The position numbers were made by a program, and so were the translations under genes. The notes beneath the pieces were generated by a model. It did no database searches and was not told the DNA's origin. It was given only the letters and a program-made list of their open reading frames with translations. From a virus: a DNA stretch of 26,993 nucleotides. The DNA lies in the IMG/VR virus record IMGVR_UViG_3300011013_000067, positions 1-26,993 of that record; one strand, given 5' to 3'. Of this stretch, positions 13,919-25,355 are shown piece after piece; the stretch's first letter is position 1; every line of letters begins with the position of its first letter.

Positions 13919-13993
13919 GCTCCTGAAGCTCAATGGTCGAGCAGGTGCCTCTAAAACACTTGGAAATGGGTTCGATTCCCATCAGGAGCGCCA
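13919..13993 (+). tRNA. tRNA with anticodon CTA (amber-reading)
   Basis: Perfect acceptor GCTCCTG/CAGGAGC, D-stem GCTC/GAGC, T-arm ATGGG/CCCAT with TTCGATT loop, 5-nt variable loop and encoded CCA. Anticodon loop CTCTAAA (13949-13955) with T33 gives CTA at 13951-13953, which reads UAG. The top anticodon pair is C-A. The charging amino acid is not evident. Confidence 0.85.
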
Positions 13994-14532: not shown

Positions 14533-14541
14533 TGGTATAAT
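14533..14541 (+). promoter_or_regulatory. Extended -10 promoter for Met tRNA block
   Basis: TGG plus TATAAT (14536-14541), an extended -10 (TGnTATAAT). The predicted start near 14548 is two bases before the initiator tRNA, so the transcript would begin almost at the mature tRNA end. A T7A7 run lies upstream. No -35 match. Confidence 0.65.
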
Positions 14542-14549
14542 CATATTCT

Positions 14550-14625
14550 CGCGGAATAGAGTTCTGGGAACTCATCAGTCTCATAAGCTGATCTAGGTAT
14601 GGTTCGATTCCTGCTTCCGCAACCA
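14550..14625 (+). tRNA. Initiator tRNA-fMet (CAT)
   Basis: Acceptor CGCGGAA/TTCCGCA leaves C1-A72 unpaired, the hallmark of bacterial initiators, with A73 and CCA. D-stem GAGT/ACTC; anticodon loop CTCATAA on stem TCAGT/GCTGA. The three G-C pairs next to the anticodon loop seen in E. coli initiator are absent, and the T-stem (TATGG/CCTGC) pairs in only two positions. Confidence 0.8.
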
Positions 14626-14700
14626 GGCGAGATAGCATAATGATAATGCGGCCCATGTAAAAATGGGAAAATCGAGGTTTAAATCCTTGTCCTGCCACCA
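14626..14700 (+). tRNA. Irregular tRNA, non-standard anticodon loop
   Basis: Abuts the initiator tRNA. Acceptor GGCGAGA/TCCTGCC has one A-C mismatch; D-stem GCAT/ATGC; T-arm CGAGG/CCTTG with TTTAAAT loop; CCA encoded. The anticodon arm folds as CCCAT/ATGGG with a 6-nt loop, or CCCA/TGGG with an 8-nt loop (TGTAAAAA). With T33 before it the triplet would be AAA, but identity is uncertain. Confidence 0.6.
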
Positions 14701-14775
14701 AGCGACGAAGCCGAGCGGTGAGGCAGTCCTCTCATAAGGGACCAGTTGTGGGTTCGATTCCCACCGTCGTTACCA
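14701..14775 (+). tRNA. tRNA with CAT anticodon (elongator Met or Ile2)
   Basis: Acceptor AGCGACG/CGTCGTT pairs throughout with one G-U. Anticodon arm GTCCT-CTCATAA-GGGAC; T-arm GTGGG/CCCAC. Position 1 pairs with 72, unlike the initiator two genes upstream. CAT may decode AUG, or AUA if C34 becomes lysidine; the separate tRNA-Ile(TAT) makes Met more likely. Confidence 0.85.
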
Positions 14776-14803
14776 AATAAAATCCCACCAATTAAGAAAG
14801 ACG

Positions 14804-14812
14804 TGGTATAAT
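14804..14812 (+). promoter_or_regulatory. Extended -10 promoter of leader unit 1
   Basis: TGGTATAAT with TATAAT at 14807-14812. Predicted start about 14819, three bases before an ATG. The same TATAAT-9 nt-ATG layout recurs at 17402 and 18830. Confidence 0.65.
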
Positions 14813-14821
14813 ACAATCACT

Positions 14822-14890
14822 ATGAAAACGACACTCCAAAATTTCAATTCCTTTAGATGTTTCTCAACATCGTATAGTAATTTATCGTAA
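14822..14890 (+). CDS. Leader peptide 1 (putative, 22 aa)
   Basis: ATG lies 9 nt after TATAAT and has no SD, so translation would be nearly leaderless. Of 21 codons after Met, 16 encode Asn (3), Phe (3), Ser (5), Leu (2), Tyr, Arg or Cys, exactly the amino acids of the downstream tRNA block. They include AGA for tRNA-Arg(TCT), TTA for the TAA tRNA, TCA for tRNA-Ser(TGA), AGT for tRNA-Ser(GCT), TGT for Cys and TAT for Tyr. The start resembles leader 2 at DNA level. No homology is claimed. It is proposed as a regulatory peptide; chance composition or a non-coding RNA 5' end are alternatives. Confidence 0.45.
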   Translation: MKTTLQNFNSFRCFSTSYSNLS

Positions 14891-14975
14891 TTACTAAATA
14901 GTCGTTTTTCCAATTCCATAATCAATATAATCAATAGCGGAAACCGACTAAAGTTTTGAATGTCGTTTTTTTATT
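14822..14975 (+). promoter_or_regulatory. Structured leader RNA with attenuator-like pairings
   Basis: Four segments can pair in exclusive ways. Segment 1 AAAACGAC (14825-14832, codons 2-4 of the leader frame) matches segment 2 GTCGTTTT (14901-14908). Segment 2 TAGTCG (14899-14904) matches segment 3 CGACTA (14944-14949). Segment 3 CGAC (14944-14947) matches segment 4 GTCG (14961-14964), followed by T7. Segment 1 can also pair with segment 4 over nine bases (14825-14833 with 14960-14968). Two local hairpins lie between: GATGTT/AACATC (14856-14871) and TAGTAATT/AATTACTA (14875-14896). This is the logic of amino-acid operon attenuators. The 3:4 stem is short (4 bp). tRNA-Asn starts at 14978. Confidence 0.5.
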
Positions 14976-14977
14976 TA

Positions 14978-15053
14978 TTGTGGTGTAGCTCAGTAGGTAG
15001 AGCGCCTGGCCGTTAACCAGGATGCCGCGGGTTCGATCCCTGCCACCACAGCC
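14978..15053 (+). tRNA. tRNA-Asn (GTT), with C33
   Basis: Acceptor TGTGGTG/CACCACA, D-stem GCTC/GAGC, anticodon arm CCTGG-CCGTTAA-CCAGG, CCA encoded. Position 33 is C rather than the near-universal T; all helices are otherwise sound. Confidence 0.9.
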
Positions 15054-15055
15054 AG

Positions 15056-15134
15056 TGGGTCTGTAGTACTAAATAGGCTAAAACTCTCCGCTGTTAACGG
15101 AGGAGATGTAGGTTCGAGTCCTACCGGGCCCGCC
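15056..15134 (+). tRNA. tRNA-Asn (GTT), second copy
   Basis: Acceptor GGGTCTG/CGGGCCC with two T-G pairs; anticodon arm CTCCG-CTGTTAA-CGGAG with normal T33; T-arm GTAGG/CCTAC; CCA encoded. The D region is enlarged and poorly paired (79 nt overall). Not a recent duplicate of the first tRNA-Asn. Confidence 0.85.
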
Positions 15135-15136
15135 AA

Positions 15137-15211
15137 AGTGAACGTAGCTCAGGGGTAGAGCTCCTGTCTGAAACGCAGGGAGTCGCTGGTTCAAATCCAG
15201 CCGTTCGCACC
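15137..15211 (+). tRNA. tRNA-Phe (GAA)
   Basis: Acceptor GTGAACG/CGTTCGC, D-stem GCTC/GAGC, anticodon arm CCTGT-CTGAAAC-GCAGG, T-loop TTCAAAT, CCA encoded. Ends two bases before the RNase P RNA. Confidence 0.95.
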
Positions 15212-15213
15212 AA

Positions 15214-15505
15214 TGAGAAGGCCGAAACCACTACTGGTAGTTGCAAGACACTGGAGGAAGGTCGGGACATCACAGAGTACCCTAGCGGATAACGTCCGCG
15301 CACCGTGAGGTGACGACTAGTGGAACAGAGACGAGCCAGTTAAGTCTGGATGAAACGGCTAAACTCTAGGGGATGCAACACCAAATAGACCAATGCTTGA
15401 CCGTTACTCGCGGGATGTTGGAGGGTTGGTGGCAGTGAGGCGGAAGGTAACGACCGTCCCAGATAGATTGTGGTTCACGACAGAATCCCGCCTACTGGTT
15501 TTCTC
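15214..15505 (+). ncRNA. rnpB: RNase P RNA (type A, compact), phage-encoded
   Basis: About 292 nt, against about 377 in E. coli. P1: GAGAAGGCCG (15214-15223) pairs with TGGTTTTCTC (15496-15505). P2: AACCAC (15225-15230) pairs with GTGGTT near 15470. Conserved core is clear: GGAGGAAGGTCGGGAC (P4 5' strand), P8 GCGGA-TAACG-TCCGC with the same loop as E. coli, P9 CACC-GTGA-GGTG with a GNRA loop, GTGGAACAGAGAC (P10/P11 region), CTAAACTC, ACCAAATAG, and CACGACAGAATCCCG (P4 3' strand). P12 is reduced to CCAG/CTGG, and P13-P14 appear absent. It would process tRNA 5' ends with host protein C5. It lies between tRNA-Phe and tRNA-Ser in one transcription block. Confidence 0.92.
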
Positions 15506-15517
15506 TATCTTAACAAT

Positions 15518-15602
15518 GGAAGGTATGCTAGCGGCCTAGCACCCGGTTTTGAACACCGGTACAGTGTAACAGCTGGGGGATCGACACCTCTACCTTCCGC
15601 CA
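15518..15602 (+). tRNA. tRNA-Ser (TGA)
   Basis: Acceptor GGAAGGT/ACCTTCC, anticodon arm CCGGT-TTTGAAC-ACCGG, long class II variable arm, G73 and CCA. T54 is replaced by A (loop ATCGACA). Confidence 0.9.
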
Positions 15603-15604
15603 AT

Positions 15605-15689
15605 GGATCGGTCGCATAGCGGCGATTGCACCTGACTGTAAATCAGGCGGTTAATACCCTCGTAGGTTCGAGTCCTACCCGGTCCACCA
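15605..15689 (+). tRNA. tRNA-Tyr (GTA)
   Basis: Acceptor GGATCGG/CCGGTCC, anticodon arm CCTGA-CTGTAAA-TCAGG, class II variable arm as expected for bacterial Tyr, T-arm GTAGG/CCTAC, A73, CCA. Confidence 0.95.
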
Positions 15690-15766
15690 GGTCCCTTAGC
15701 CCAATTGGTAGAGGCATTCGGTTTAAACCCGATACAGTGTGAGTTCGAATCTCACAGGGACTACCA
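15690..15766 (+). tRNA. tRNA with TAA anticodon (Leu), short variable loop
   Basis: Acceptor GGTCCCT/AGGGACT, anticodon loop TTTAAAC giving TAA (reads UUA), T-arm GTGAG/CTCAC, CCA. The variable loop is only 5 nt (ACAGT), while bacterial tRNA-Leu is class II. It abuts the neighbouring tRNAs with no spacer. Resembles the CAA tRNA at 17075. Confidence 0.8.
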
Positions 15767-15841
15767 GCAGGCGTGGCAGAATGGATATGCAGCGGTCTTC
15801 TAAGCCGTACCACGTGGGTTCGAATCCTACCGCCTGTGCCA
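15767..15841 (+). tRNA. tRNA-Arg (TCT)
   Basis: Acceptor GCAGGCG/CGCCTGT, anticodon arm GCGGT-CTTCTAA-GCCGT, T-arm GTGGG/CCTAC, G73, CCA. Reads AGA/AGG, codons frequent in this AT-rich phage. Confidence 0.95.
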
Positions 15842-15936
15842 GGAAGAGTAAGTCAAGAGCATCTGGGTACTGACTGCTGTTTGCTAAACAGTTAGGTGTA
15901 ACAGCCGTGCAGGTTCGAATCCTGTCTCTTCCGCCA
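15842..15936 (+). tRNA. tRNA-Ser (GCT), enlarged D-loop
   Basis: Acceptor GGAAGAG/CTCTTCC, anticodon arm GCTGT-TTGCTAA-ACAGT, class II variable arm, G73 and CCA. The D-loop between AGTC and GACT is about 17 nt, roughly double the usual, making the gene 95 nt. Confidence 0.85.
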
Positions 15937-15937
15937 A

Positions 15938-15994
15938 GGGCGTGTATTCGGAAAAATTCTAGATAAGTGGGTTCGACTCCCGCCACGTCCACCA
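15938..15994 (+). tRNA. 57-nt mini-tRNA (acceptor plus T-arm) with G3-U70
   Basis: Perfect acceptor GGGCGTG/CACGTCC with G3-U70, T-arm GTGGG-TTCGACT-CCCGC, A73 and CCA, plus T8-A9. Only 22 nt join acceptor and T-arm, so there is no room for both D- and anticodon arms. G3-U70 with A73 is the alanine identity known to suffice for AlaRS charging of minihelices. It may be a charged minihelix, or a deleted tRNA-Ala. Confidence 0.65.
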
Positions 15995-15995
15995 A

Positions 15996-16070
15996 GGCTC
16001 AATAGTCGAGTGATAAGACGCTCAGTTGCAACCTGAGAGATCGTGAGTTTGATTCTCACTTGAGCCTCCA
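15996..16070 (+). tRNA. tRNA-Cys (GCA)
   Basis: Acceptor GGCTCAA/TTGAGCC, anticodon arm CTCAG-TTGCAAC-CTGAG, T-arm GTGAG/CTCAC with TTTGATT loop, T73 (U73 is a Cys identity base), CCA. Confidence 0.95.
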
Positions 16071-16076
16071 CTAACT

Positions 16077-16085
16077 TGGTATAAT
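16077..16085 (+). promoter_or_regulatory. Extended -10 promoter
   Basis: TGGTATAAT with TATAAT at 16080-16085. Predicted start about 16092, next to the ATG at 16093. Confidence 0.6.
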
Positions 16086-16092
16086 TCCCCTT

Positions 16093-16386
16093 ATGACAGC
16101 ATTAATGCCATGTTTTATATGTAAAACAGTACGAATCTACGGGCAATATGGATGTGCAAGAAAGACTAGTATGAAAATAACTAATGAAGAAAAATCCGTA
16201 TTAAATAAAATAGGTGAAGCCCATAAAGCTTTTATGGATTTAGAACAACAACATCCGGATGATATAAGAGATTTTGTAAATGGTGTACATATCATGCAAG
16301 GGCTTTTAATGCAAAGAGTTGCACGCAGGGCAGATCCTGAATCCTTTCCATCTTATAAAACACAAGTGTACAAAGAGAACTTATGA
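16093..16386 (+). CDS. Small helical protein, possible Acb2-like
   Basis: 97 aa from a leaderless-type ATG 7 nt after TATAAT; the core (71 aa) could instead start at ATG 16171, which has only a weak AAGAAAG before it. Core: NEEKSVLNKIGEAHKAFMDLEQQ helix, then DIRDFVNGVHIMQGLLMQRVARRADPESFP. The helix pair followed by a Q-x(5)-R-x-A-R-P/ADPE-F ending is reminiscent of the Acb2/Vs.4 hairpin family of phage cyclic-nucleotide sponges that block CBASS. That is from memory of the pattern, not a database hit. The N-terminal extension has three Cys. TGA overlaps the next ATG (ATGA). Confidence 0.5.
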   Translation: MTALMPCFICKTVRIYGQYGCARKTSMKITNEEKSVLNKIGEAHKAFMDLEQQHPDDIRDFVNGVHIMQGLLMQRVARRADPESFPSYKTQVYKENL

Positions 16387-17084
16387 AAATTAATATAATT
16401 GGTGATATAGCTGGACGGTACGATGAACTAATGCTTCTATTAGATAAGATGCCTGAAGCTGATTTAATTCTTTCTGTTGGAGATCTTGTCGATAGAGGTT
16501 CACAATCTAAAGAGGTCATTCAGTGGTTTATGGATACAGAGAATGCAGATGCCGTATATGGTAATCATGAAGATTTATTCGTGAATGGTATCATCCATAG
16601 AGATACATTTAATTGGATCCAGAATGGCGGTGGTGCAACACTAAGATCATATATTGAATTAGGCCCTGGCGAGGAAATTGAGGATAAAACGATTAATGAT
16701 GTACATGTTCCTCAAGAGCACATGCAGTGGTTGCAGACGCGTCCAATGTATTTTCAAACAGATAACCTGTTTGTTAGTCACGCACCTGTAATAAGCCTTA
16801 AGAGTATTCCTGCAGATCCATTAAGTAGAAATGAACTCTTTATTTGGAATCGCTATGAGCCCAGAAAACCACAGGATAAATACATGATTTATGGCCACAA
16901 TGGTCAATTCAAAAGACACAAGTGGGGCGACGGAACAGAGTTTGCAATGTGTCTTGATAATTCACATTCAGGCAGATTGACTGGTGCTCACTGGGATGGA
17001 GATAAAGTTACAGAGATTTTCTCTGTTGATTTTCCAGATAGAGATGATCACCCAGGTTATTATCACAATATCATAGCTGAGTAG
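16383..17084 (+). CDS. PPP-family metallophosphatase
   Basis: 233 aa. Calcineurin-like motifs in order: IIGDIAGRYDEL (D8), SVGDLVDRGS (31-40), YGNHEDLF (59-66), FVSHAP, and MIYGHNGQ. This is the layout of lambda phosphatase/ApaH-type enzymes that cleave phosphoserine/threonine or dinucleoside polyphosphates. The usual GDxHG motif reads GDIAG, so the first His ligand is Ala; activity may be altered, or this is a subfamily trait. Start overlaps the previous stop. The TAG stop (17082-17084) is also T8-A9-G10 of the tRNA that follows. Confidence 0.75.
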   Translation: MKINIIGDIAGRYDELMLLLDKMPEADLILSVGDLVDRGSQSKEVIQWFMDTENADAVYGNHEDLFVNGIIHRDTFNWIQNGGGATLRSYIELGPGEEIEDKTINDVHVPQEHMQWLQTRPMYFQTDNLFVSHAPVISLKSIPADPLSRNELFIWNRYEPRKPQDKYMIYGHNGQFKRHKWGDGTEFAMCLDNSHSGRLTGAHWDGDKVTEIFSVDFPDRDDHPGYYHNIIAE

Positions 17085-17151
17085 CCCAATTGGAAGAGGC
17101 AGCAGGTTCAAACCCTGTTCAGTGCGGGTTCGACTCCCGCCTCAGTTACCA
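17075..17151 (+). tRNA. tRNA with CAA anticodon (Leu), short variable loop
   Basis: Acceptor AGCTGAG/CTCAGTT, anticodon arm GCAGG-TTCAAAC-CCTGT, T-arm GCGGG/CCCGC, A73, CCA. Five-base variable loop as in the TAA tRNA at 15690. Its first 10 bases overlap the phosphatase gene, and its final A begins the SD (AGGAG) of the next gene. Confidence 0.85.
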
Positions 17152-17160
17152 GGAGACTAT

Positions 17161-17391
17161 GTGGCGATTATTAAAGAGTTACATGCTGAGCGCAAGGCAT
17201 TAATTAAAGCAGTAAAGTGGGGAGCAATATGGGACAAAAAGAAAGTTGATGATATAGACCACAAGATAAAAACCATCAGGGGGTTCCTACTTACCATGTG
17301 TCGTCTGAAATTCCATGAAGATTATCCTTATAAAAACCAGATAGAAACCGAAGAATTTCTAAAAAATATTATGGAAACCATTGTTAAATGA
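17161..17391 (+). CDS. Small hypothetical protein
   Basis: 76 aa. GTG 17161 chosen: AGGAG (17151-17155) lies 5 nt upstream; the longer frame would be translated tRNA sequence. Charged, helical (ELHAERKALIKAVKWG, KKKVDDIDHKIKTIRG). No family recognised. It ends at the promoter of leader unit 2. Confidence 0.55.
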   Translation: MAIIKELHAERKALIKAVKWGAIWDKKKVDDIDHKIKTIRGFLLTMCRLKFHEDYPYKNQIETEEFLKNIMETIVK

Positions 17392-17398
17392 TTTTTTA

Positions 17399-17407
17399 TG
17401 GTATAAT
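17399..17407 (+). promoter_or_regulatory. Extended -10 promoter of leader unit 2
   Basis: TGGTATAAT with TATAAT at 17402-17407; TTGTTA at 17381 could be a weak -35. Predicted start about 17414, three bases before ATG 17417. Confidence 0.65.
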
Positions 17408-17416
17408 CATTTTACT

Positions 17417-17476
17417 ATGATAAAAACACTTCAAAAACAGATTCTTTCAGAACCTAAGGCTTGCTTTAAACAGTAA
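17417..17476 (+). CDS. Leader peptide 2 (putative, 19 aa, Lys-rich)
   Basis: ATG 9 nt after TATAAT, no SD. Four of 18 codons after Met are Lys (AAA, AAA, AAG, AAA) and one is Glu (GAA); the downstream tRNAs are Lys(TTT), Lys(CTT), Glu(CTC) and Glu(TTC). GAA (17450-17452), AAG (17456-17458) and AAA (17468-17470) sit at, in and just after the 5' arm of the terminator, where a stalled ribosome would stop the hairpin forming. The 5' end of the frame resembles leader 1 in DNA. Confidence 0.45.
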   Translation: MIKTLQKQILSEPKACFKQ

Positions 17477-17490
17477 GCCTTAGGCCTTTT
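17453..17490 (+). terminator. Terminator hairpin overlapping leader 2
   Basis: CCTAAGGCTT (17453-17462) pairs perfectly with AAGCCTTAGG (17475-17484), 12-nt loop, then CCTTTT. The 5' arm and loop are codons 13-18 of the leader frame and the 3' arm begins at its stop codon. Translation through the frame would therefore compete with termination before tRNA-Lys. Confidence 0.8.
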
Positions 17491-17526
17491 AATTCCCTTT
17501 ACAATTCAATTAATATTCCCAATCAT

Positions 17527-17603
17527 GGGTAGGTAGCACATGCTGGTAGTGTGACGGTCTTTTAAACCGTAGAGCGCGGGTTCGATTCCCGTCCTACTCT
17601 CCA
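17527..17603 (+). tRNA. tRNA-Lys (TTT)
   Basis: Acceptor GGGTAGG/CCTACTC, anticodon arm ACGGT-CTTTTAA-ACCGT, T-loop TTCGATT, CCA encoded. First tRNA after the unit 2 terminator. Discriminator is T rather than the common A. Confidence 0.95.
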
Positions 17604-17605
17604 TA

Positions 17606-17637
17606 GAGGTTGCATGTTACCTCGTTAAAAACATGCA
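17606..17637 (+). other. H-type pseudoknot between tRNA-Lys genes
   Basis: GAGGT (17606-17610) pairs with ACCTC (17619-17623); the loop sequence TGCATGT (17611-17617) pairs with ACATGCA (17631-17637), leaving an A-rich GTTAAAA linker. The two stems are compatible only as an H-type pseudoknot. It lies 3 nt after tRNA-Lys(TTT) and 4 nt before tRNA-Lys(CTT). Confidence 0.5.
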
Positions 17638-17640
17638 CAT

Positions 17641-17717
17641 GGGAAGGTAGCATATGCGGGTAATGCGACTGGCTCTTAACCAGTAGTGCGGGGGTTCGAG
17701 TCCCCTCCTTCTCTCCA
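17641..17717 (+). tRNA. tRNA-Lys (CTT)
   Basis: Acceptor GGGAAGG/CCTTCTC, anticodon arm ACTGG-CTCTTAA-CCAGT, T73, CCA. Similar to the TTT gene, so probably a duplicate that changed its wobble base. Confidence 0.95.
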
Positions 17718-17792
17718 ACGGTAGTCGTCTAACGGCTAGGACGCCAGCCTCTCAAGCTGGTAATCAGGGTTCGATTCCCTGCTACCGTACCA
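17718..17792 (+). tRNA. tRNA-Glu (CTC)
   Basis: Acceptor ACGGTAG/CTACCGT, anticodon arm CCAGC-CTCTCAA-GCTGG, A73, CCA. No spacer on either side. Confidence 0.95.
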
Positions 17793-17867
17793 GCTCTATT
17801 CGTCTATTGGTTAGGATCTCAAGCTTTCAACTTGAAGAAACGGGTTCGATTCCCGTATAGAGTACCA
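17793..17867 (+). tRNA. tRNA-Glu (TTC)
   Basis: Acceptor GCTCTAT/ATAGAGT with G1-T72, anticodon arm TCAAG-CTTTCAA-CTTGA, A73, CCA. Directly abuts tRNA-Glu(CTC). Confidence 0.95.
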
Positions 17868-17891
17868 ATCATAAAATAAATTTATTTTTTG

Positions 17892-17897
17892 TATAAT
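17892..17897 (+). promoter_or_regulatory. Promoter -10 before 5'-3' exonuclease
   Basis: TATAAT after a T-rich run. Unlike the leader units it is followed by a normal ~19-nt leader with SD GGGAGATAAG. Confidence 0.55.
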
Positions 17898-17922
17898 AGA
17901 TATCAAATCATTGGGAGATAAG

Positions 17923-18819
17923 ATGAAAAAAGTATTTATTATAGACTTCATGAATATAGCATTCCGCAATTACCATGCATTTGAAAAAATGAAACTGCAA
18001 ACAAAATCAGGTATTCCAACAGGAACACTATTCGGGTATGCATCGTTCTTAGTAAACCTAATTAAGAATGAGAACCCAGACTACATTGCGGTAGCAATGG
18101 AATCAGATGAGTCTTTTAGAAAAGATATCCTACCATCATATAAAGAGAATAGGTCTGGTAAACCCTCTGACTTCGAAGCAGAACTAGGAAATGTTGTAGG
18201 TATGTTTCGTACACTCGGTATTCCTTTATTTAAATTTAGAGGAATGGAGGCTGATGATGTTATCGGGATCTTAACAAAGAAGTTCCGAACTGATCCTAAT
18301 AATGAAATCTTTATAGTTTCTGGTGATAAAGATTTTATGCAGCTCATTGATGATAAAACTAAAATGTACATGCCTAAATCAAGGGGTTTATACACAATCA
18401 TTGGTAAGGATGCAGTTCATGAAAAGTTTGGGTGTCACCCTGAACAGGTAATCGATATCCTTGCATTGATGGGTGATAAGGTTGATTGCATTCCGGGTGT
18501 ACACGGGATCGGTGCAAAGGGTGCAGCTAAACTAATTGCTGAATTTGGATCAATCGAAAAGATGTATGAAGATCCTGTAGCCCTAATGAAATCTACAACT
18601 AAATCTCAGTTCACCAAATTAATGGATGGGGAAGATGATGCATTCATGTCATATAAACTGGCTACGATCGTCACAGATGTCAATATCGATCTCAATCTAG
18701 AAGATATGGCATTCAACCCATCTTCTATCGAAGACCCTATTTTCCTGAATTTCTGCGATACATTCGAACTCACCTCAATAAAAAACAAAATCTTTGTCAA
18801 TTTAAATGGCATTGATTGA
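17923..18819 (+). CDS. 5'-3' exonuclease / flap endonuclease
   Basis: 298 aa. ATG 17923 chosen for its GGGAG SD; the TTG at 17911 precedes that SD. Pol I 5'-nuclease type: KVFIIDFMNIAFR (D8), ESFRKDILPSYKENR (arch entry), GMEADDVIGIL (acidic pair), FIVSGDKDFMQLI, MGDKVDCIPGVHGIGAKGAAKLI (helix-3-turn-helix). It matches the T4 RNase H/T5 D15 family, which removes RNA primers and flaps during replication. It stands alone between tRNA blocks. Confidence 0.88.
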   Translation: MKKVFIIDFMNIAFRNYHAFEKMKLQTKSGIPTGTLFGYASFLVNLIKNENPDYIAVAMESDESFRKDILPSYKENRSGKPSDFEAELGNVVGMFRTLGIPLFKFRGMEADDVIGILTKKFRTDPNNEIFIVSGDKDFMQLIDDKTKMYMPKSRGLYTIIGKDAVHEKFGCHPEQVIDILALMGDKVDCIPGVHGIGAKGAAKLIAEFGSIEKMYEDPVALMKSTTKSQFTKLMDGEDDAFMSYKLATIVTDVNIDLNLEDMAFNPSSIEDPIFLNFCDTFELTSIKNKIFVNLNGID

Positions 18820-18826
18820 GATTTTG

Positions 18827-18835
18827 TGGTATAAT
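18827..18835 (+). promoter_or_regulatory. Extended -10 promoter of leader unit 3
   Basis: TGGTATAAT with TATAAT at 18830-18835, 9 nt before ATG 18845. It overlaps nothing; exonuclease stop is at 18819. Confidence 0.65.
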
Positions 18836-18844
18836 CGACTTGTT

Positions 18845-18961
18845 ATGAAAAATGTATTCACACAACTTAATATTCTCCAAGATACGCATCAACGCGTAGA
18901 TCTAGCTGTCCGTGGTATTGATGGTCTTCCGGCCATAACTATATCCGCGTACTGGCGCTAA
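18845..18961 (+). CDS. Leader peptide 3 (putative, 38 aa)
   Basis: Same TATAAT-9 nt-ATG layout, no SD. Of 37 codons after Met, 31 encode the twelve amino acids of tRNAs downstream to 21697 (Ala, Gln, Gly, Leu, Pro, Ile, Val, Arg, Thr, Trp, Asp, His), and all twelve occur. Synonym choice fits: Arg is CGC/CGT (tRNA ACG), never AGA; Leu is CTN including CTA (tRNA TAG); Ile is ATT and ATA (tRNAs GAT and TAT); Trp and His are present once. It ends ISAYWR. It could also be an ordinary small protein. Confidence 0.45.
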   Translation: MKNVFTQLNILQDTHQRVDLAVRGIDGLPAITISAYWR

Positions 18962-18998
18962 AAAAACCCAGCAAATAACAACAACAAGTAAATAACAC
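18962..18998 (+). promoter_or_regulatory. G-poor A/C-rich stretch after leader 3
   Basis: Between the leader stop and tRNA-Ala the sequence is almost only A and C with repeated CAA/AAC, unstructured, with no T-run. This composition suits a Rho entry site that a stalled ribosome could mask, as at tnaC. No intrinsic terminator was found in this unit. Confidence 0.3.
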
Positions 18999-19072
18999 GG
19001 GACCGTGGTGAAATGGTATCACCTCTGTTTTGCAAGCAGAAGTTAAGGGTTCGACTCCCTTCGGCTCCACCA
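18999..19072 (+). tRNA. tRNA-Ala (TGC)
   Basis: Acceptor GGGACCG/CGGCTCC contains G3-U70, the alanine identity pair, and one A-C mismatch at 4-69. Anticodon arm TCTGT-TTTGCAA-GCAGA, T-arm AAGGG/CCCTT, A73, CCA. Confidence 0.92.
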
Positions 19073-19129
19073 ACAGATTGGATTTATTATGCAAACGATA
19101 GCAGTTAACATACACGTTTAATAGTACGA

Positions 19130-19203
19130 TGGGGATTAGTTTAATGGTAGAACGAGAGGATTTGACCCTCTTAGTCTCAGTTCGATTCTGAGATCCCCCG
19201 CCA
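19130..19203 (+). tRNA. tRNA-Gln (TTG)
   Basis: Acceptor TGGGGAT/ATCCCCC leaves T1-C72 unpaired; GlnRS favours a weak first pair. Anticodon arm AGAGG-ATTTGAC-CCTCT, G73, CCA. A 57-nt spacer upstream holds no recognised gene. Confidence 0.9.
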
Positions 19204-19277
19204 TGGGATGTAGTTTAACGGTAGAACTCTGGGATCTGACCCCAGTAGTGAGGGTTCGATTCCTTCCATCCCCGCCA
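19204..19277 (+). tRNA. tRNA-Gln (CTG)
   Basis: Acceptor TGGGATG/CATCCCC, again T1-C72. Anticodon arm CTGGG-ATCTGAC-CCCAG, G73, CCA. Close relative of the TTG gene, which it abuts. Confidence 0.93.
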
Positions 19278-19352
19278 GCCGGTGAAGTGTTGATGGGTAC
19301 ACGCCAGGCTTCCACCCTGGAATAATGAGTTCAAATCTCATTATCGGCTCCA
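19278..19352 (+). tRNA. tRNA-Gly (TCC)
   Basis: Acceptor GCCGGTG/TATCGGC, anticodon arm CCAGG-CTTCCAC-CCTGG, T73, CCA. Last tRNA before the HNH genes. Confidence 0.93.
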
Positions 19353-19358
19353 TTTTTG

Positions 19359-19367
19359 TGGTACAAT
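19359..19367 (+). promoter_or_regulatory. Extended -10 variant (TGGTACAAT) before HNH gene
   Basis: TGG plus TACAAT (19362-19367) preceded by TTTTTG, one base off the TATAAT motif repeated in this region. A ~19-nt leader with AAGGAG follows. Confidence 0.5.
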
Positions 19368-19392
19368 ATTTGTAAACGCTCCAAGGAGAATT

Positions 19393-19884
19393 ATGAAGAA
19401 GTGTACAAAATGTAAAACAGAGAAAGAATTAGAAGCTTTCCCTAAGGATAGTAAAGCTAAAAGTGGGCTTTATTCTAAATGCAAAGAATGTAAAAACCAA
19501 CAAAAAAGAGAATGGTATTCTAAGAATAAAGACTTTGTTTCAAAACAGGATAAAACACCAGAACGACGCTTTAGCTTCGGTAGGGCAAAAGCTAAAAATC
19601 GTAATTTGAAATGGAATATTGAAAAAGAAATATTCTTTAAACTTATAAAGAAAAAGTGCTATTACTGCGGAGAATCAATAGCGAATGAAAAAGGATGTGG
19701 ACTAGATCGATTAGATAATTCTAGGGGTTATATTATAGATAATGTAGTAACTGCTTGTGGAATATGCAATGGAGCTAGAAATAATTATTTTACTCCAGAA
19801 GAATGGAAAACAGCAATTACAGCTATTTTAAACTTTCGAAAGGCTAATCGAGATGAGAACACTAGTACTAAATGCAAGCTATGA
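19393..19884 (+). CDS. HNH endonuclease with N-terminal zinc motif
   Basis: 163 aa, SD AAGGAG. C4/C7/C30/C33 form a probable zinc finger, followed by a basic linker. The HNH core is CYYCGES (C89, C92), GLDRLDNSRGYIIDNV (103-118) and ACGICNGARN (C122, C125). This is the free-standing homing-type HNH common in T4-like tRNA regions, where it nicks cognate genomes and spreads by repair. It may have brought nearby disorder to the array. Overlaps the next gene by 32 nt. Confidence 0.85.
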   Translation: MKKCTKCKTEKELEAFPKDSKAKSGLYSKCKECKNQQKREWYSKNKDFVSKQDKTPERRFSFGRAKAKNRNLKWNIEKEIFFKLIKKKCYYCGESIANEKGCGLDRLDNSRGYIIDNVVTACGICNGARNNYFTPEEWKTAITAILNFRKANRDENTSTKCKL

Positions 19885-20359
19885 ACCCATACAGATGGTC
19901 GACTGGAAAGAGGCCATCACGATGATCATGAAAGAGAAGGCTGATATTGTATCAACGTATGCCGACAAGATGATCAGATCAGCATATGAGGCATTCGAGA
20001 TGCCAAAGATTATTCGGTTACGTAAATACGTAAACGTTGCAAAGAAGGCCACAATCCTTCGTTACAGTAGAAGAAATATACTGATTCGAGACAACCACAA
20101 GTGTCAGTACTGCGGTAAGAAATGTGTGGGAAAAGACGCGACATTAGATCACGTACTCCCGAGTTCAAGAGGTGGTAAGTCTTCTTGGACAAATATTGTT
20201 CTTGCATGTACAAAGTGCAACAACAAGAAAGATGACAGAACACCTAAGGAAGCAGGTATGATTCTGTTAAGAGAACCTGTCAAGCCTCAGGCAGAGACAG
20301 GTACGTTCGAAAAACTGTTAAAGGAATTTGGTTTCTCACTCGATTTCTTAAATAGATAA
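19853..20359 (+). CDS. HNH endonuclease, second
   Basis: 168 aa. N-terminal MRTLVLNASYEPIQMVDWKE and EAITMIMKEKADIV are typical of a widespread HNH family; the core is CQYCGKKC, ATLDHVLPSSRGG (catalytic His) and NIVLACTKCNNKKDDRTP. Zinc-binding CxxC pairs flank the catalytic His. Different subfamily from the gene just upstream, which it overlaps, so the pair is not a simple duplication. Ends five bases before tRNA-Leu. Confidence 0.85.
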   Translation: MRTLVLNASYEPIQMVDWKEAITMIMKEKADIVSTYADKMIRSAYEAFEMPKIIRLRKYVNVAKKATILRYSRRNILIRDNHKCQYCGKKCVGKDATLDHVLPSSRGGKSSWTNIVLACTKCNNKKDDRTPKEAGMILLREPVKPQAETGTFEKLLKEFGFSLDFLNR

Positions 20360-20363
20360 ACAT

Positions 20364-20450
20364 GCCGAAGTGGTGAAATTGGTAGACACGCTGGTCTTAG
20401 AAACCAGTGCCCGCAAGGGCATGTGGGTTCGACTCCCACCTTCGGCACCA
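20364..20450 (+). tRNA. tRNA-Leu (TAG)
   Basis: Acceptor GCCGAAG/CTTCGGC, anticodon arm CTGGT-CTTAGAA-ACCAG, full class II variable arm (GCCCGCAAGGGC), A73, CCA. The only tRNA-Leu here with the standard long variable arm. Confidence 0.95.
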
Positions 20451-20451
20451 G

Positions 20452-20523
20452 GACTTGATAGTGTGGTATTGCACGCCGGTACACCATACCGGAAGGACAG
20501 TGAAACTCTGGTAAAGGTCCCCA
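20452..20523 (+). tRNA. Degenerate tRNA-like sequence
   Basis: Lies exactly between two good tRNAs and ends in CCA. T8-A9, a D-like stem GTG/CAC and a perfect anticodon stem CCGGT/ACCGG are present, but position 33 is C (loop ACACCAT), the T-loop reads TGAAACT, the variable loop is 3 nt and the acceptor pairs at five of seven positions. The triplet at 34-36 is ACC. Probably a decaying tRNA. Confidence 0.5.
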
Positions 20524-20525
20524 GA

Positions 20526-20601
20526 CAGGGACAAGGGTTGATGGTAACCCGCGGCTTTTGGAAGGCTGAGATTCCGGGTTCGACTCCCGGGTTCCTGACC
20601 A
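20526..20601 (+). tRNA. tRNA-Pro (TGG)
   Basis: Acceptor CAGGGAC/GTTCCTG with the Pro-typical C1-G72, D-stem GGGT/ACCC, anticodon arm CGGCT-TTTGGAA-GGCTG, A73, CCA. Confidence 0.93.
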
Positions 20602-20676
20602 TGGACTATAGTGAAACGGTGATCACGCCACTCTGATAAAGTGGAATTTCGGGTTCGACTCCCGGTAGTCCTACCA
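20602..20676 (+). tRNA. tRNA-Ile (GAT)
   Basis: Acceptor TGGACTA/TAGTCCT with T1-T72 unpaired, D-stem GTGA/TCAC, anticodon arm CCACT-CTGATAA-AGTGG, T-arm TCGGG/CCCGG, A73, CCA. Confidence 0.92.
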
Positions 20677-20677
20677 G

Positions 20678-20752
20678 TTTCGTATAGCTCAGTTTGGAAG
20701 AGCCCCATATTGGTATGGGAGGTCATTGGTTCGATTCCAATTGCGATACACA
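20678..20752 (+). tRNA. Irregular tRNA, short anticodon loop, no CCA
   Basis: D-stem GCTC/GAGC and T-arm ATTGG-TTCGATT-CCAAT are normal; acceptor TTTCGTA/TGCGATA has one mismatch. The anticodon arm is CCCAT/ATGGG with a 6-nt loop ATTGGT, or CCCA/TGGG with an 8-nt loop; the triplet after T33 is TGG. It ends CACA, not CCA. Same stem as the irregular tRNA at 14626. Confidence 0.6.
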
Positions 20753-20828
20753 GGTCCCGTAGCTCAGTGATTAGAGCAGTGCTTTTACAAGGCAACGGTC
20801 GTAGGTTTGAATCCTACCGGGATTACCA
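20753..20828 (+). tRNA. tRNA-Val (TAC)
   Basis: Acceptor GGTCCCG/CGGGATT, D-stem GCTC/GAGC, anticodon arm GTGCT-TTTACAA-GGCAA, T-loop TTTGAAT, A73, CCA. Confidence 0.93.
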
Positions 20829-20890
20829 ATTCAAGATCTAGCCCACCTTGATTACGCAGGTAGAAATATCGCGGTCTATACGGGCATCAT

Positions 20891-20966
20891 GGGTGATTAG
20901 TGAAATGGATTATCACGATGGTCTACGAAACCATTATTACAGGTTCGAATCCTGTATCACCTGCCA
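20891..20966 (+). tRNA. tRNA-Arg (ACG)
   Basis: Acceptor GGGTGAT/ATCACCT, D-stem GTGA/TCAC, anticodon arm ATGGT-CTACGAA-ACCAT, G73, CCA. A34 would need host TadA conversion to inosine to read CGU/CGC/CGA. The 62-nt spacer before it holds no gene. Confidence 0.94.
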
Positions 20967-21033
20967 AAGCTTAGGAGATTTTATGGCATCACAAAAAGGT
21001 TCTCTATTTTAGTTAACAGCTAAAAAAGGAGAA

Positions 21034-21269
21034 ATGATGAGTTACTTTAGACACCCGCAAACCCGTAATGAGAAGCGCAAGTGGTATCAGTTGAAGTGGG
21101 AGAAAAAGAGTGCGGTTTTAAAATCAGGGCAAGAGCTGCTAGAAATACAAAAAATCTAGTGGATTCATATGATGATATACATAAATCATACGGATGGGAA
21201 GTGAAAAGTTGGAAACATTATAAAAGATCTAAGCAGTGGGATAGAAGTGATATTAACAAGCTCCGGTAG
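21034..21269 (+). CDS. Small conserved-type phage protein split by a frameshift
   Basis: SD AAAGGAGAA precedes ATGATG at 21034/21037. That frame reads MSYFRHPQTRNEKRKWYQLK and stops at 21159. From about 21105 the -1 frame continues as IRARAARNTKNL, DSYDDIHKSYGWEVKSWKHY and KRSKQW to a TAG at 21267. The two halves together give the usual order of a small phage protein type (FR.P.T..E.R at the start, YDD..SWK..K.QW at the end), so they belong together. The overlap includes GAGAAAAAGAG, a G-AAA-AAG slip site candidate. Either programmed -1 frameshifting or a mutation. The stop is T8-A9-G10 of the next tRNA. Confidence 0.6.
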
Positions 21270-21335
21270 CTCAGCGGTGAGAGCAGCACTCTTATAAGGT
21301 GTTGGTCGAAGGTTCGAATCCTTCTCGGAGTACCA
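21260..21335 (+). tRNA. tRNA-Ile (TAT)
   Basis: Acceptor GCTCCGG/TCGGAGT, D-stem GCTC/GAGC, anticodon arm GCACT-CTTATAA-GGTGT, A73, CCA. Reads AUA directly, so no lysidine is needed. Confidence 0.93.
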
Positions 21336-21391
21336 GTCGCGAACGTCGGCGACGCAACTAGACGTGACATAGCTGGAGAGACAGCATCCAT

Positions 21392-21465
21392 GCTCTTATA
21401 GTTCAGTGGTAGAATACCTGTTTTGTAATCAGGGGATAACAGTTCGATTCTGTTTAGGAGCTCCA
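21392..21465 (+). tRNA. tRNA-Thr (TGT)
   Basis: Acceptor GCTCTTA/TAGGAGC, D-stem GTTC/GAAT, anticodon arm CCTGT-TTTGTAA-TCAGG with a T-T at 31-39, T73, CCA. The 56-nt spacer upstream has a GTCGC/GCGAC hairpin (21336-21353). Confidence 0.92.
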
Positions 21466-21539
21466 AGGAGATTGGTGTAGTGGTAACACAACGGCTTCCA
21501 AACCCGTTGATGAGGGTTCGATTCCTTCATCTCCTGCCA
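21466..21539 (+). tRNA. tRNA-Trp (CCA)
   Basis: Acceptor AGGAGAT/ATCTCCT, D-stem GTGT/ACAC, anticodon arm with ACGG/CCGT and loop TTCCAAA, G73 (Trp identity), CCA. Abuts tRNA-Thr. Confidence 0.94.
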
Positions 21540-21542
21540 TAT

Positions 21543-21622
21543 GGAATATGGAACTGCTAGGTGTGGTTGCTCCCCTGTCACGGGAGACGTTCAGATGGGT
21601 TCGAATCCCATATATTCCGCCA
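21543..21622 (+). tRNA. tRNA-Asp (GTC)
   Basis: Acceptor GGAATAT/ATATTCC, anticodon arm CTCCC-CTGTCAC-GGGAG, G73 (Asp identity), CCA. D-stem is short (AAC/GTT) with a large loop, giving 80 nt. Confidence 0.92.
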
Positions 21623-21623
21623 T

Positions 21624-21697
21624 GTATCTGTAGCTTAATGGTAAAGCCGCCGATTGTGATTCGGCTAATGCGGGTTCAATTCCCGTCAGATACCCCA
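21624..21697 (+). tRNA. tRNA-His (GTG)
   Basis: Acceptor GTATCTG/CAGATAC with the His-typical C73, anticodon arm GCCGA-TTGTGAT-TCGGC, CCA. Position -1 is T in the DNA, not the encoded G-1 usual for bacterial tRNA-His. Last tRNA of the array. Confidence 0.93.
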
Positions 21698-22944: not shown

Positions 22945-23649
22945 ATGGATGATAACCTATTAAAACTTTTTAACTCTAACATCAGGGTTAATAGTATCAG
23001 CGCTCTTGACCCTGATGCTATCTGGCCACATAAAGTGGAAATATGTATAACTCGTATCCCTATAAGGAAGCGCGATGGATATGACGATATCATGATGCGC
23101 GGTTTCGCCCACAAGTTGAAATCGAACATGGTAAAGAATGGAATAGTATTTCTTATGTGTTATGCACCGGTTGAGTGCAAGTCTCGCCCCTTTGAAGTCG
23201 CTCGACTTATGACAGACGCTGGTTTTAATCATATAGATAATATAATTATTCAAAAAAGTTGGTTCCCAGGTAAGAGATCGGAGATTAATCTAGTAAATTC
23301 ACATGAATATGTTCTATATTTCTGCAACGGCGACGTGTGGAACTTAGATAGATTACCAATAAGAGATTATTTAAAAACAAACGAAGATATAACATGTCCA
23401 GGGAATACCTGGAAAGTAGAAACAGGCTCACTAGATGAGTCAATATCGCGCGACTTATCCGAACTCCTCCTCAGGATGACAGATGCCCTGCCCGGCTCGA
23501 TAGTGTTTGATCCTTTCATGGGCAATCAATCCACCATGTTAACATCGATTAGACTAGGCCATTCTTTTTATGGTTTTGAGAAGGACTCAAAGCGGGTAAA
23601 AAAGTATGAGAAATTAATTAAAAAGTATACCGAAACCGGGGAATTTTAA
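22945..23649 (+). CDS. DNA methyltransferase-like protein with degenerate motif IV
   Basis: 234 aa. C-terminal SAM-binding motif GSIVFDPFMGNQST (184-197) and YGFEKD (209-214) match N4/N6 DNA methylases (DPFxGxGT; GxExx), and SHEYVLYF (119-126) fits the same family. Where DPPY/SPPW (motif IV) should follow the first strand, the sequence reads ICITRIPIRK (33-42), so the catalytic motif is not recognisable. It may be inactive, a different acceptor specificity, or a DNA-binding decoy. No SD; ATG is 7 nt after TATAAT. Stop overlaps the GroEL start. Confidence 0.65.
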   Translation: MDDNLLKLFNSNIRVNSISALDPDAIWPHKVEICITRIPIRKRDGYDDIMMRGFAHKLKSNMVKNGIVFLMCYAPVECKSRPFEVARLMTDAGFNHIDNIIIQKSWFPGKRSEINLVNSHEYVLYFCNGDVWNLDRLPIRDYLKTNEDITCPGNTWKVETGSLDESISRDLSELLLRMTDALPGSIVFDPFMGNQSTMLTSIRLGHSFYGFEKDSKRVKKYEKLIKKYTETGEF

Positions 23650-25355
23650 TGATATATCAGAAAAGTAAAGCAAAAGAGATTATTGCAGATAAAGAACAGT
23701 TGCATAAAACTGTTTCTGAAACTTTAGGGATAATGGCTGATATCGTGGGTCGAACACTTGGTCCAGGTGGGAATCCGGTACTTATCGAACGTGACGGGTT
23801 ATCTCCGCTCGCCACAAAAGACGGTGTTACTGTAGCAAAATCATTAGGTCTTTCTCAAGCAGATGCTAATATCATTGTTGACGCAGCGAAAGAGATTTGT
23901 ATCAACACCGCGAAGCAGGCAGGTGACGGAACAACTACTGCTATCGTATTAGCTAATGAGTTAGTAAAACGCGGTCAGCTATTTCTTAAAAATAACCCTA
24001 AATATAATCCACAGCGAATGATTAATGAGTTCAATACTGCTTATACAAGTGTGATAGTTCCATTCTTACGAGAAGCATCAATTGCGATCGATGAAGAATA
24101 TCAATTAAAACATGTAGCGACAATCTCAGCCAACGGTGACTCCCAGACAGCCGATATTGTTGTTGACGCAGTTATGGCCGCGGGGGATGATGGTACTGTT
24201 CTTATTAATGAAGGACAAGATTCAATTACTAAGGTCGAAACGGTTGATGGTTATATCGTTACGACTGGTCTTAAGGATATTGGACAAATGGGCCCAGCAT
24301 TCATTAATGATAAGGCTGGACAGCAAGTAAAGATGGACGAAGGTCTTATCGTTCTTTATGATGGTGCTATTAATGATTTAAAAGTACCAGGGGCTATTCA
24401 AGGGGCTGTAGCTGATCAAGCTGGTTTCACAGATGGAACGCCTATTATAGTTCTAGCGCATTCATTTGCTGATTCTGTATTGGAGAAGTTTGCTAAATCT
24501 ACAAAAAGTGGATTAACAATTGTTCCAATTAGGACACCGAGATCTGGCCTACCAAATGGTGCGTCTGAGTTCTTAAATGATATGGCGGCATATACTGGCG
24601 GTATGATTTACGATCCGGGTAATGTTGATAATATGAAAAAGGAAGATTTGGGTACATTCGTAGAAGCGAAAGTGAATATGTATGAATCGTTCATATCTTG
24701 CGATCCTGATCTTGGCGAGGTTGAAGAAAGAATTGTTGAACTACGTTCGATTGAGAAAGCGGCTTTCAGCGAGATGGATAAATCATTCGTCCGTGCGGCT
24801 ATCGCAAAACTCACTGGTGGTGTAGCAACCATAATCGTTGGTGGTAATTCTGACCTTGAAATTCGAGAGAAAAAAGGCCGTGTAGAAGATGCCGTGGAAG
24901 CCGTACGTTCTGCAATTGCAGAAGGTATAGTTCCCGGTGGAGCTACAATGCATTTACGATTAGCTAAAGAATTATCTTCACGAAGAGATAAGAGTGTTGC
25001 GTGGGATATCCTGATTGATGCTTTACGGGCACCGTTCGATCTGTTAATGACAAATTGTGGTGAAGATCCATCTTCGGTTTACATGGCTATTAAGGAATAC
25101 GTAGAGGATACTCAAACAGTTAGACCTGCGCTGGTATTCGATGCAAATGAGCATAAGACAGTTGATCCGCTGGACGTAGGGATTATAGAGCCTGCTAAAG
25201 TGGTAAGAGTTAGCATTAGTAATGCACTATCTGTTGCATCACTGTTAACAACACTAGGTGGCATTGTAGTTGTTCCACGAGATGGCAACTTAGAGATGCA
25301 AATGGAACTTGCTAATCAAGCTTTTAGCAATATGATGAGTACAGCGGAAGAATAA
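23649..25355 (+). CDS. groEL: GroEL-like chaperonin
   Basis: 568 aa, close to cellular GroEL length (548). ATP site: RTLGPGGNPVLIE (35-47), LATKDGVTVAK (55-65, catalytic D58), GDGTTTAIVL (92-101), ALTGGVATIIVG-type strand (387-398) and RVEDAVEAVRSAIAEGIVPGGA (D414). It has equatorial, intermediate and apical domains in the normal order. The GGM repeat tail of host GroEL is missing; it ends MSTAEE. No GroES gene is visible here. Phage chaperonins (as in Pseudomonas phages EL and OBP) fold phage proteins, some without a co-chaperonin. Overlaps genes on both sides (AATG junctions), so co-translated. Confidence 0.93.
   Translation: MIYQKSKAKEIIADKEQLHKTVSETLGIMADIVGRTLGPGGNPVLIERDGLSPLATKDGVTVAKSLGLSQADANIIVDAAKEICINTAKQAGDGTTTAIVLANELVKRGQLFLKNNPKYNPQRMINEFNTAYTSVIVPFLREASIAIDEEYQLKHVATISANGDSQTADIVVDAVMAAGDDGTVLINEGQDSITKVETVDGYIVTTGLKDIGQMGPAFINDKAGQQVKMDEGLIVLYDGAINDLKVPGAIQGAVADQAGFTDGTPIIVLAHSFADSVLEKFAKSTKSGLTIVPIRTPRSGLPNGASEFLNDMAAYTGGMIYDPGNVDNMKKEDLGTFVEAKVNMYESFISCDPDLGEVEERIVELRSIEKAAFSEMDKSFVRAAIAKLTGGVATIIVGGNSDLEIREKKGRVEDAVEAVRSAIAEGIVPGGATMHLRLAKELSSRRDKSVAWDILIDALRAPFDLLMTNCGEDPSSVYMAIKEYVEDTQTVRPALVFDANEHKTVDPLDVGIIEPAKVVRVSISNALSVASLLTTLGGIVVVPRDGNLEMQMELANQAFSNMMSTAEE

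Follow-up and report, generated by a model that had tools for sequence, protein, structure and literature searches.

Leader reading frames at the heads of phage tRNA blocks carry codons for the tRNAs they precede

A close correspondence links short leader reading frames to the tRNA genes behind them in a 26,993-nt stretch of viral DNA (IMG/VR record IMGVR_UViG_3300011013_000067, positions 1-26,993; hereafter the window) and in its relatives. Three short open reading frames (ORFs) of the window, leaders 1, 2 and 3, stand at the heads of tRNA blocks, and with 16 further leaders at tRNA-block heads in seven related uncultured phages they make up a family set of 19 leaders from 8 phages. Each of these leaders has a codon for every decoding box represented in its own block, 150 of 150 boxes in the curated tRNA list. 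The codon-to-tRNA match is shown for the family, and the observation is real and general, since leaders of this kind also head tRNA arrays in several unrelated phages. We think it likely that each leader works by ribosome-mediated attenuation, as a polyvalent sensor of tRNA supply for its block. Sequences other than named GenBank records are metagenomic viral contigs.

Codon match between leaders and their tRNA blocks

A preliminary description of the window had placed three ORFs 9 nt past TATAAT at tRNA-block heads, and their starts at 14822, 17417 and 18845 were verified. Each begins exactly 9 nt past an extended -10 element, TGGTATAAT (TATAAT at 14807, 17402 and 18830), and the leader ends lie 88, 50 and 37 nt, respectively, from the first tRNA (Table 1). 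Leader 1 does carry codons for all eight species of its block; 15 of its 21 codons are in-block (binomial P = 3e-5 against the window phage's codon usage), and of 1940 windows of equal length taken from the phage's coding sequence none scores as well. Leader 3 samples its whole block, as had been proposed (P = 6e-4 by the same test; 0 of 1774 coding windows), using CGN instead of AGR, CTN instead of TTR, and both ATY and ATA. The split boxes agree: TTA and AGA in leader 1 stand with Leu(taa) and Arg(tct), CTN and CGN in leader 3 with Leu(tag) and Arg(acg).

Relatives were reached via the downstream methylase (91 loci, of which 80 were kept), and whole relative contigs were scanned for tRNAs, giving arrays in six large relatives and in L018; those regions were retrieved. 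Other routes yielded little: a 5'-3' exonuclease query returned only distant loci without tRNA arrays, a search for GTGGTATAAT-6-ATGAACA recovered leaders in G009 and G013 only, and the sole addition from a class-2 motif search was L321, a near-identical copy of G016. Searching viral contigs for GTGGTATAAT-9-ATGNAAAA gave 49 matches with one true homologue (L018/L124), so promoter and ATG alone are not diagnostic. Leaders are absent in relatives G010, G015 and G018, whose tRNAs are few and scattered. No isolate of the window's family was found in the phage collection; one relative contig lies within a Cytophagales metagenome-assembled genome, which we do not trust as host evidence.

A short ORF lies between promoter and tRNA block for all 19 family leaders, and a rule blind to codon content recovers them. 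This rule (GG plus TATAAT, one mismatch allowed, followed 6-9 nt later by the ATG of an ORF of 15-60 aa), applied to 17 loci on both strands, returned 24 distinct ORFs, 19 of which are the leaders, each the sole match at its block head; for the remaining five, the 2.8 kb downstream contain no tRNA. Among putative translation signals, the -10-to-ATG spacing is constant within most family phages (9,9,9; 6,6,6; 7,7,7). The leader ATGs lie 6-9 nt past the -10 element, at or adjoining the expected transcription start, and the window-family leaders are probably leaderless mRNAs; two leaders have an alternative in-frame ATG. At window positions 16080-16386 TATAAT is followed, after 7 nt, by the ATG of an ordinary 97-aa ORF, and other genes of the window phage may thus have leaderless starts. 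At block 0 (14550-14775) the promoter TGGTATAAT stands directly ahead of tRNA-Met, with no leader ORF between (promoter and tRNA within window 14536-14625).

For codon matching, tRNAs were collapsed to 24 decoding boxes. Codon usage alone predicts coverage of 110 of the 150 curated boxes, and 385 of 601 leader codons are in-block vs 238 expected. The +1 and +2 frames cover 101 of 150 boxes, with 36-39% of codons in-block, and a leader contains codons for boxes belonging to other blocks of its phage in only 101 of 235 cases. Permutation of the leader-block pairing rejects chance: block-leader shuffling never reached the observed value in 1e5 trials (p<=1e-5), permutation within phages gave p = 1.5e-4, near its floor, and permutation within leader classes gave p ~1e-5. 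Because the curated tRNA calls were permissive and were made after the leaders had been seen, we re-tested the match using tRNAs called by ARAGORN at default settings and blocks delimited automatically, which gave 133 of 133 boxes and p values of similar size.

The sharpest evidence for the match is covariation among the class-3 leaders. For boxes that vary within this class, the codon is present/absent in 63/0 cases with the tRNA vs 13/20 without it (Fisher 2.7e-12; the rows are not phylogenetically independent). Internal Met occurs only where the block has tRNA-Met (the second ATG of G006 is at its start), Cys codons occur only alongside tRNA-Cys, ATA only alongside Ile(tat), and Glu in G006, which has tRNA-Glu, and elsewhere only as the second codon of L018. 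Among the homologous class-2 leaders, those of the window, G005 and G016 contain Lys codons and precede Lys tRNAs; those of G009 and G013, whose blocks contain Glu only, are without Lys codons. Across the 16 leaders of the seven relatives, frame and codon content are kept, and the codons shift with the tRNA content of the block.

Leaders in unrelated tRNA-rich phages

Ten unrelated tRNA-rich phages were put through the ORF test, and four were positive. The Agrobacterium phage Atu_ph07 has a leader that covers nine of nine boxes, with 19 of 23 codons of its core in-block; against its own coding windows the leader has a joint p of 0.0024, and 0 of 4024 windows do as well as the core. A segment from codon 28, directly after the sampled run, TCCGGTTCCG, could form 10 bp with CGGAACCGGG, the 5' arm of the terminator, so that the predicted fold is textbook terminator/antiterminator geometry. 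Bacillus phage G has a leader with seven of seven boxes covered and 26 of 43 codons in-block. The KVP40 leader covers 20 of 22 boxes (joint p 0.0025 against its own coding windows), and the ORF and its terminator are conserved in VS1, nt-1, CZ01, QD01 and XZ1.

In the giant Caulobacter phages CcrColossus and CcrPW, and likewise in Bajun, Gurke and Kikimora, giant phages of Brevundimonas, blocks of the Pro Lys Leu His Ala Ser type follow leaders in which codons for Leu, Ser, Ala, Pro, Thr, His and Lys are abundant. None of 5750 coding windows of CcrColossus is as good as its leader; in the Brevundimonas phages a strong terminator follows the leader, and Bajun adds a 10-bp antiterminator-type helix. 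The leader equivalents of Atu_ph07, phage G and the Brevundimonas phages have Shine-Dalgarno-like starts. The leader ORFs are not annotated as coding sequences in the KVP40, Atu_ph07 and CcrColossus records. Because the survey took in ~45 block heads and also turned up two spurious low-p ORFs that lack a terminator (in Aeh1 and internally in KVP40), the cases outside the family lean on terminator and conservation besides the p value.

Leader RNA structure and a candidate attenuation mechanism

That leaders 1 and 2 overlap attenuator-type structures, as first described, is borne out by a long-range terminator-like helix at leader 1 (-33.6 kcal/mol) and a stop-spanning hairpin at leader 2, each followed by a T-run; leader 3 has a hairpin, and no T-run terminator was found there. 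Over the family, leader 3' ends fold better than shuffles (mean z -2.2). The class-2 leaders of relatives keep a hairpin with 5' arm GGTGTGCGTT (codons Val-Cys-Val) and a 3' arm around or beyond the stop, and substitutions in the arms GGTGTGCGTT/AACGCACACC are mostly pairing-preserving; those of G005 and G016 have an additional competing hairpin, ACGCT-ACG-AGCGT, as read from the sequence. When the downstream part alone was shuffled, stop-spanning pairing per leader was not significant except for G009 leader 2.

In the attenuation that we propose, the tRNA-block transcript would begin with the leader as a short ORF that is translated. Fast passage of a ribosome would signal that all block tRNAs are available, and transcription would then halt before it reaches the tRNAs, either at an intrinsic terminator, if the leader has one, or perhaps through Rho. 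A ribosome stalled at the codon for any scarce charged tRNA would free the distal leader RNA, which could adopt an antiterminator or protecting fold and let the block be transcribed. Because a stall at any sampled codon must act alike, the deciding structure is expected at the distal end of the ORF, and hairpins, stop-spanning arms and antiterminators do sit there. We infer translation in vivo, a polarity in which scarcity switches the block on, termination in the leaders that lack a T-run, and a benefit that may lie in replacing tRNAs that host defence has destroyed or host shut-off has removed; the polarity is suggested by the Atu_ph07 geometry together with the logic of supply. The supply loop of the preliminary description, in which starvation opens the block, is thus supported at the level of sequence and evolution, its attenuation step being the inferred part.

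Several results weigh against this reading. The idea of leader 2 as a Lys/Glu sampler holds insofar as both boxes are covered; with 5 of 18 codons in-block its match is not significant alone (P = 0.08), and the same is true of most leaders of small Lys/Glu blocks. The match was found at the level of decoding boxes, and a test at isoacceptor level (NNA vs NNG) gave no clear result. No leader was accepted in six of the ten unrelated phages (T5, RaK2, Aeh1, GAP32, Mx1 and Vibrio phage 2.275.O); the KVP40 leader is without Gly and AGR codons, that of XZ1 has lost Cys, and that of Bajun retains Lys and Ala codons without matching tRNAs. No T-run terminator was found in 17 of the 19 family leaders, window leaders 1 and 2 being the only ones with one. 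The leader 2 terminator hairpin overlaps the stop codon, and leader 2 fits the proposed polarity poorly because a ribosome completing the ORF would melt the hairpin.

The lack of T-runs in most of the family bears on a less probable but serious alternative, that the leaders sense tRNA supply without intrinsic-terminator attenuation, stalled or queued ribosomes shielding the RNA from Rho or RNase or steering pre-tRNA processing. In several leaders the spacer from stop to first tRNA is rich in C and poor in G (13C:3G, 9C:2G, 7C:1G), as for Rho loading sites, which makes Rho a candidate in the leaders without a T-run, and the conserved arms of the class-2 stop-spanning hairpins could mask a Rho site. 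However, window leaders 1 and 2 have intrinsic terminators at the equivalent place, as do the leaders of Atu_ph07, KVP40, phage G, Gurke, Kikimora and Bajun. The melting of the leader 2 hairpin by a ribosome at the ORF end would suit the opposite polarity, in which the block is expressed only after full translation of the leader and tRNA synthesis is gated on working translation. We consider this unlikely, since it amounts to positive feedback in which nothing is gained by sampling every species, and since in Atu_ph07 the sampled codons are followed at once by the antiterminator segment, an arrangement shared with attenuators that respond to stalling.

Two further explanations concern the reading frames themselves. 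That the frames are open and start at fixed promoters would be expected if the leader peptides were functional proteins or regulators in their own right, but the peptides are poorly conserved between phages beyond stretches explicable by RNA arms, differences within the KVP40 group show no third-position bias, and leader composition tracks the tRNA set; we judge this very improbable. Chance or composition bias, with promoter-proximal short ORFs matching by accident, was a concern of the preliminary description on account of its small sample. The window has only three leaders, blocks of few tRNAs match by chance, and the outside survey produced its two spurious ORFs. Permutation under three schemes, the codon-usage, frame and coding-window nulls and the content-blind retrieval all oppose it, and for the family as a whole every null that was run rejects it, leaving accident with almost no probability.

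Other features, known systems and significance

The features are collected in Table 1.

Table 1. Leaders, tRNA blocks and associated elements (positions are those of the window unless another contig is named; in-block, codons for tRNAs of the leader's own block).
Feature	Location	Strand	Details
Promoter, leader 1	14804..14821	+	extended -10 TGGTATAAT and 9-nt spacer; TATAAT 14807-14812
Leader ORF 1	14822..14890	+	MKTTLQNFNSFRCFSTSYSNLS, then stop; Asn Phe Ser(TCN) Tyr Leu(TTR) Arg(AGR) Ser(AGY) Cys; 15/21 codons in-block, 8/8 boxes
Long-range terminator-like fold, leader 1	14826..14972	+	5' arm 14826-14844 in first codons; 3' arm 14951-14967, then T7
tRNA block 1	14979..16070	+	Asn Asn Phe (RNase P RNA) Ser(tga) Tyr Leu(taa) Arg(tct) Ser(gct) Cys
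Promoter, leader 2	17399..17416	+	extended -10 TGGTATAAT and 9-nt spacer; TATAAT 17402-17407
Leader ORF 2	17417..17476	+	MIKTLQKQILSEPKACFKQ, then stop; Lys AAA/AAG, Glu GAA; 2/2 boxes
Terminator-like hairpin, leader 2	17453..17490	+	CCTAAGGCTTGC...GTAAGCCTTAGG then CCTTTT; spans stop codon; z -4.4
tRNA block 2	17527..17867	+	Lys(ttt) Lys(ctt) Glu(ctc) Glu(ttc)
Promoter, leader 3	18827..18844	+	extended -10 TGGTATAAT and 9-nt spacer; TATAAT 18830-18835
Leader ORF 3	18845..18961	+	MKNVFTQLNILQDTHQRVDLAVRGIDGLPAITISAYWR, then stop; 31/37 codons in-block, 13/13 boxes
Hairpin within leader 3	18922..18935	+	TGGTC-TTCC-GGCCA; kept in L018 as TGGTC-TTCT-GACCA
tRNA block 3	18999..21697	+	Ala Gln Gln Gly Leu(tag) Pro Ile(gat) ? 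Val Arg(acg) Ile(tat) Thr Trp Asp His
G006 leader			MMFLNSIKHIQETIIGGWQPAAVGHAIGIEPKGHHDIQVQQ; block Ala Gln Asp His Gly Ala Pro Glu Lys Ile Val Ile Thr Trp
G021 leader			M(M)KRTLELIIIEIECKVCVELSVA; block Ile Glu
G013 leader			MNTFVHTHSSLKGMQRDCATALPCVQGTDGIKPLTKRLPLWA; block Ala Lys Gly Gln Leu Pro Ile Val His Asp Thr Met Arg Cys Trp
Atu_ph07 leader			MQPTTEIIAIERNVFVRAEAAMFWYPISGSDSHTGDKR; block Ala Arg Phe Pro Ile Tyr Trp Met Glu; terminator GGAACCGGGTAA-GAAA-TTACCCGGTTTTTTT
Bacillus phage G leader			MMKCSWFEFDTDFTDVFYCEYTFYSLYTFLDIRKQ...; block Cys Asp Phe Tyr Glu Thr Ser; terminator GAGCTGATTC-GTATA-GAATCAGCTT, T-rich run
KVP40 leader			37 codons, 19/20 amino acids; 27 tRNAs; terminator GGACGC-ACGTA-GCGTCC-TTTTTT
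RNase P RNA	window 15214-15510; L148 2724-3027; L152 8611-8913; L153 14482-14889; L154 1760-2059	(-) in L152, L153	
Short tRNAs apparently without a normal D arm	window 15937-15995; L148 5226-5293, 5380-5450; L152 8025-8096; L153 14120-14189	(-) in L152, L153	

Within tRNA block 1, five related phages have a class A bacterial RNase P RNA (153-180 bits), so that the block carries its own tRNA-processing ribozyme, and short tRNAs, apparently without a normal D arm and several of them Arg(tct/cct), lie at comparable block 1 sites. tRNA-Ser(gct) of the window (15842-15936) is not called by default ARAGORN. Other tRNA-like genes have 6-nt or 8-nt anticodon loops (window 14626-14700 and 20677-20751; L018 2818-2891), which ARAGORN gives 2- or 4-base anticodons; these are possible frameshift-type tRNAs. 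A tRNA with a CUA (amber) anticodon occurs in the window (13919-13993) and at >30 family loci, array or no array; TAG remains a stop in most family members sampled, although no TAG stop was seen in L038, and there is no clear TAG recoding. A GroEL-like chaperonin gene at window positions 23649-25355 has ~58% identity to relatives in L014-L017.

Leader-peptide attenuators control amino-acid and aminoacyl-tRNA synthetase operons of enteric bacteria (trpL, hisL, leuL, thrL, ilvL, pheM). Like these, the phage leaders are upstream short ORFs rich in codons for what the operon supplies, with hairpins at the ORF end, a terminator ahead of the first gene in several phage lineages and, by prediction, terminator/antiterminator exclusivity in Atu_ph07. 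Unlike them, the regulated product would be the tRNA itself, one leader samples up to 15-20 tRNA species rather than one to three amino acids, and the window-family leaders are probably leaderless and mostly without a T-run terminator. T-box riboswitches likewise read tRNA supply to control translation-related genes, but they have no ORF and bind uncharged tRNA directly; neither the T-box (consensus, stem I) nor the amino-acid operon leader families gave an Rfam covariance match at gathering thresholds, at which only tRNA and RNase P matched. With the leader peptides tnaC and mgtL, Rho is controlled by where the ribosome stands, a possible logic for phage leaders without a T-run; each of those peptides responds to a single ligand or residue at a single stall region, whereas the phage leaders spread many codons along the ORF. 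Phage tRNAs have been viewed as a counter to anticodon nucleases in work that concerns tRNA sequence (PMC10264068); that view explains what would be gained from inducible replacement tRNAs, and its text is without leaders, promoters or attenuation. No earlier report of leader peptides or attenuators of phage tRNA blocks was found in the full-text literature searched, with most subscription journals and all preprints outside its coverage.

The reason phages carry tRNAs has long been debated, and the regulation of phage tRNAs has hardly been described. A leader codon list that matches the block tRNAs reveals, block by block, what the phage monitors, so that the codon-compensation and counter-nuclease hypotheses become directly testable through the leaders, and the leader layout is a sequence signature for locating tRNA-supply operons. 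If ribosome-mediated attenuation holds, the leaders would be unusually wide-band translational sensors, one ORF reading up to ~20 tRNA species. We further suggest, tentatively and with rather more doubt than confidence, a general and so far overlooked circuit in tRNA-rich phages of at least five lineages, with hosts from Vibrio and Agrobacterium to Bacillus: a polyvalent codon-sampling leader that serves as a depletion alarm for any phage-encoded tRNA and brings out replacements when they are needed. Its most plausible role would be that of an inducible counter-defence against host immunity that cleaves tRNAs.

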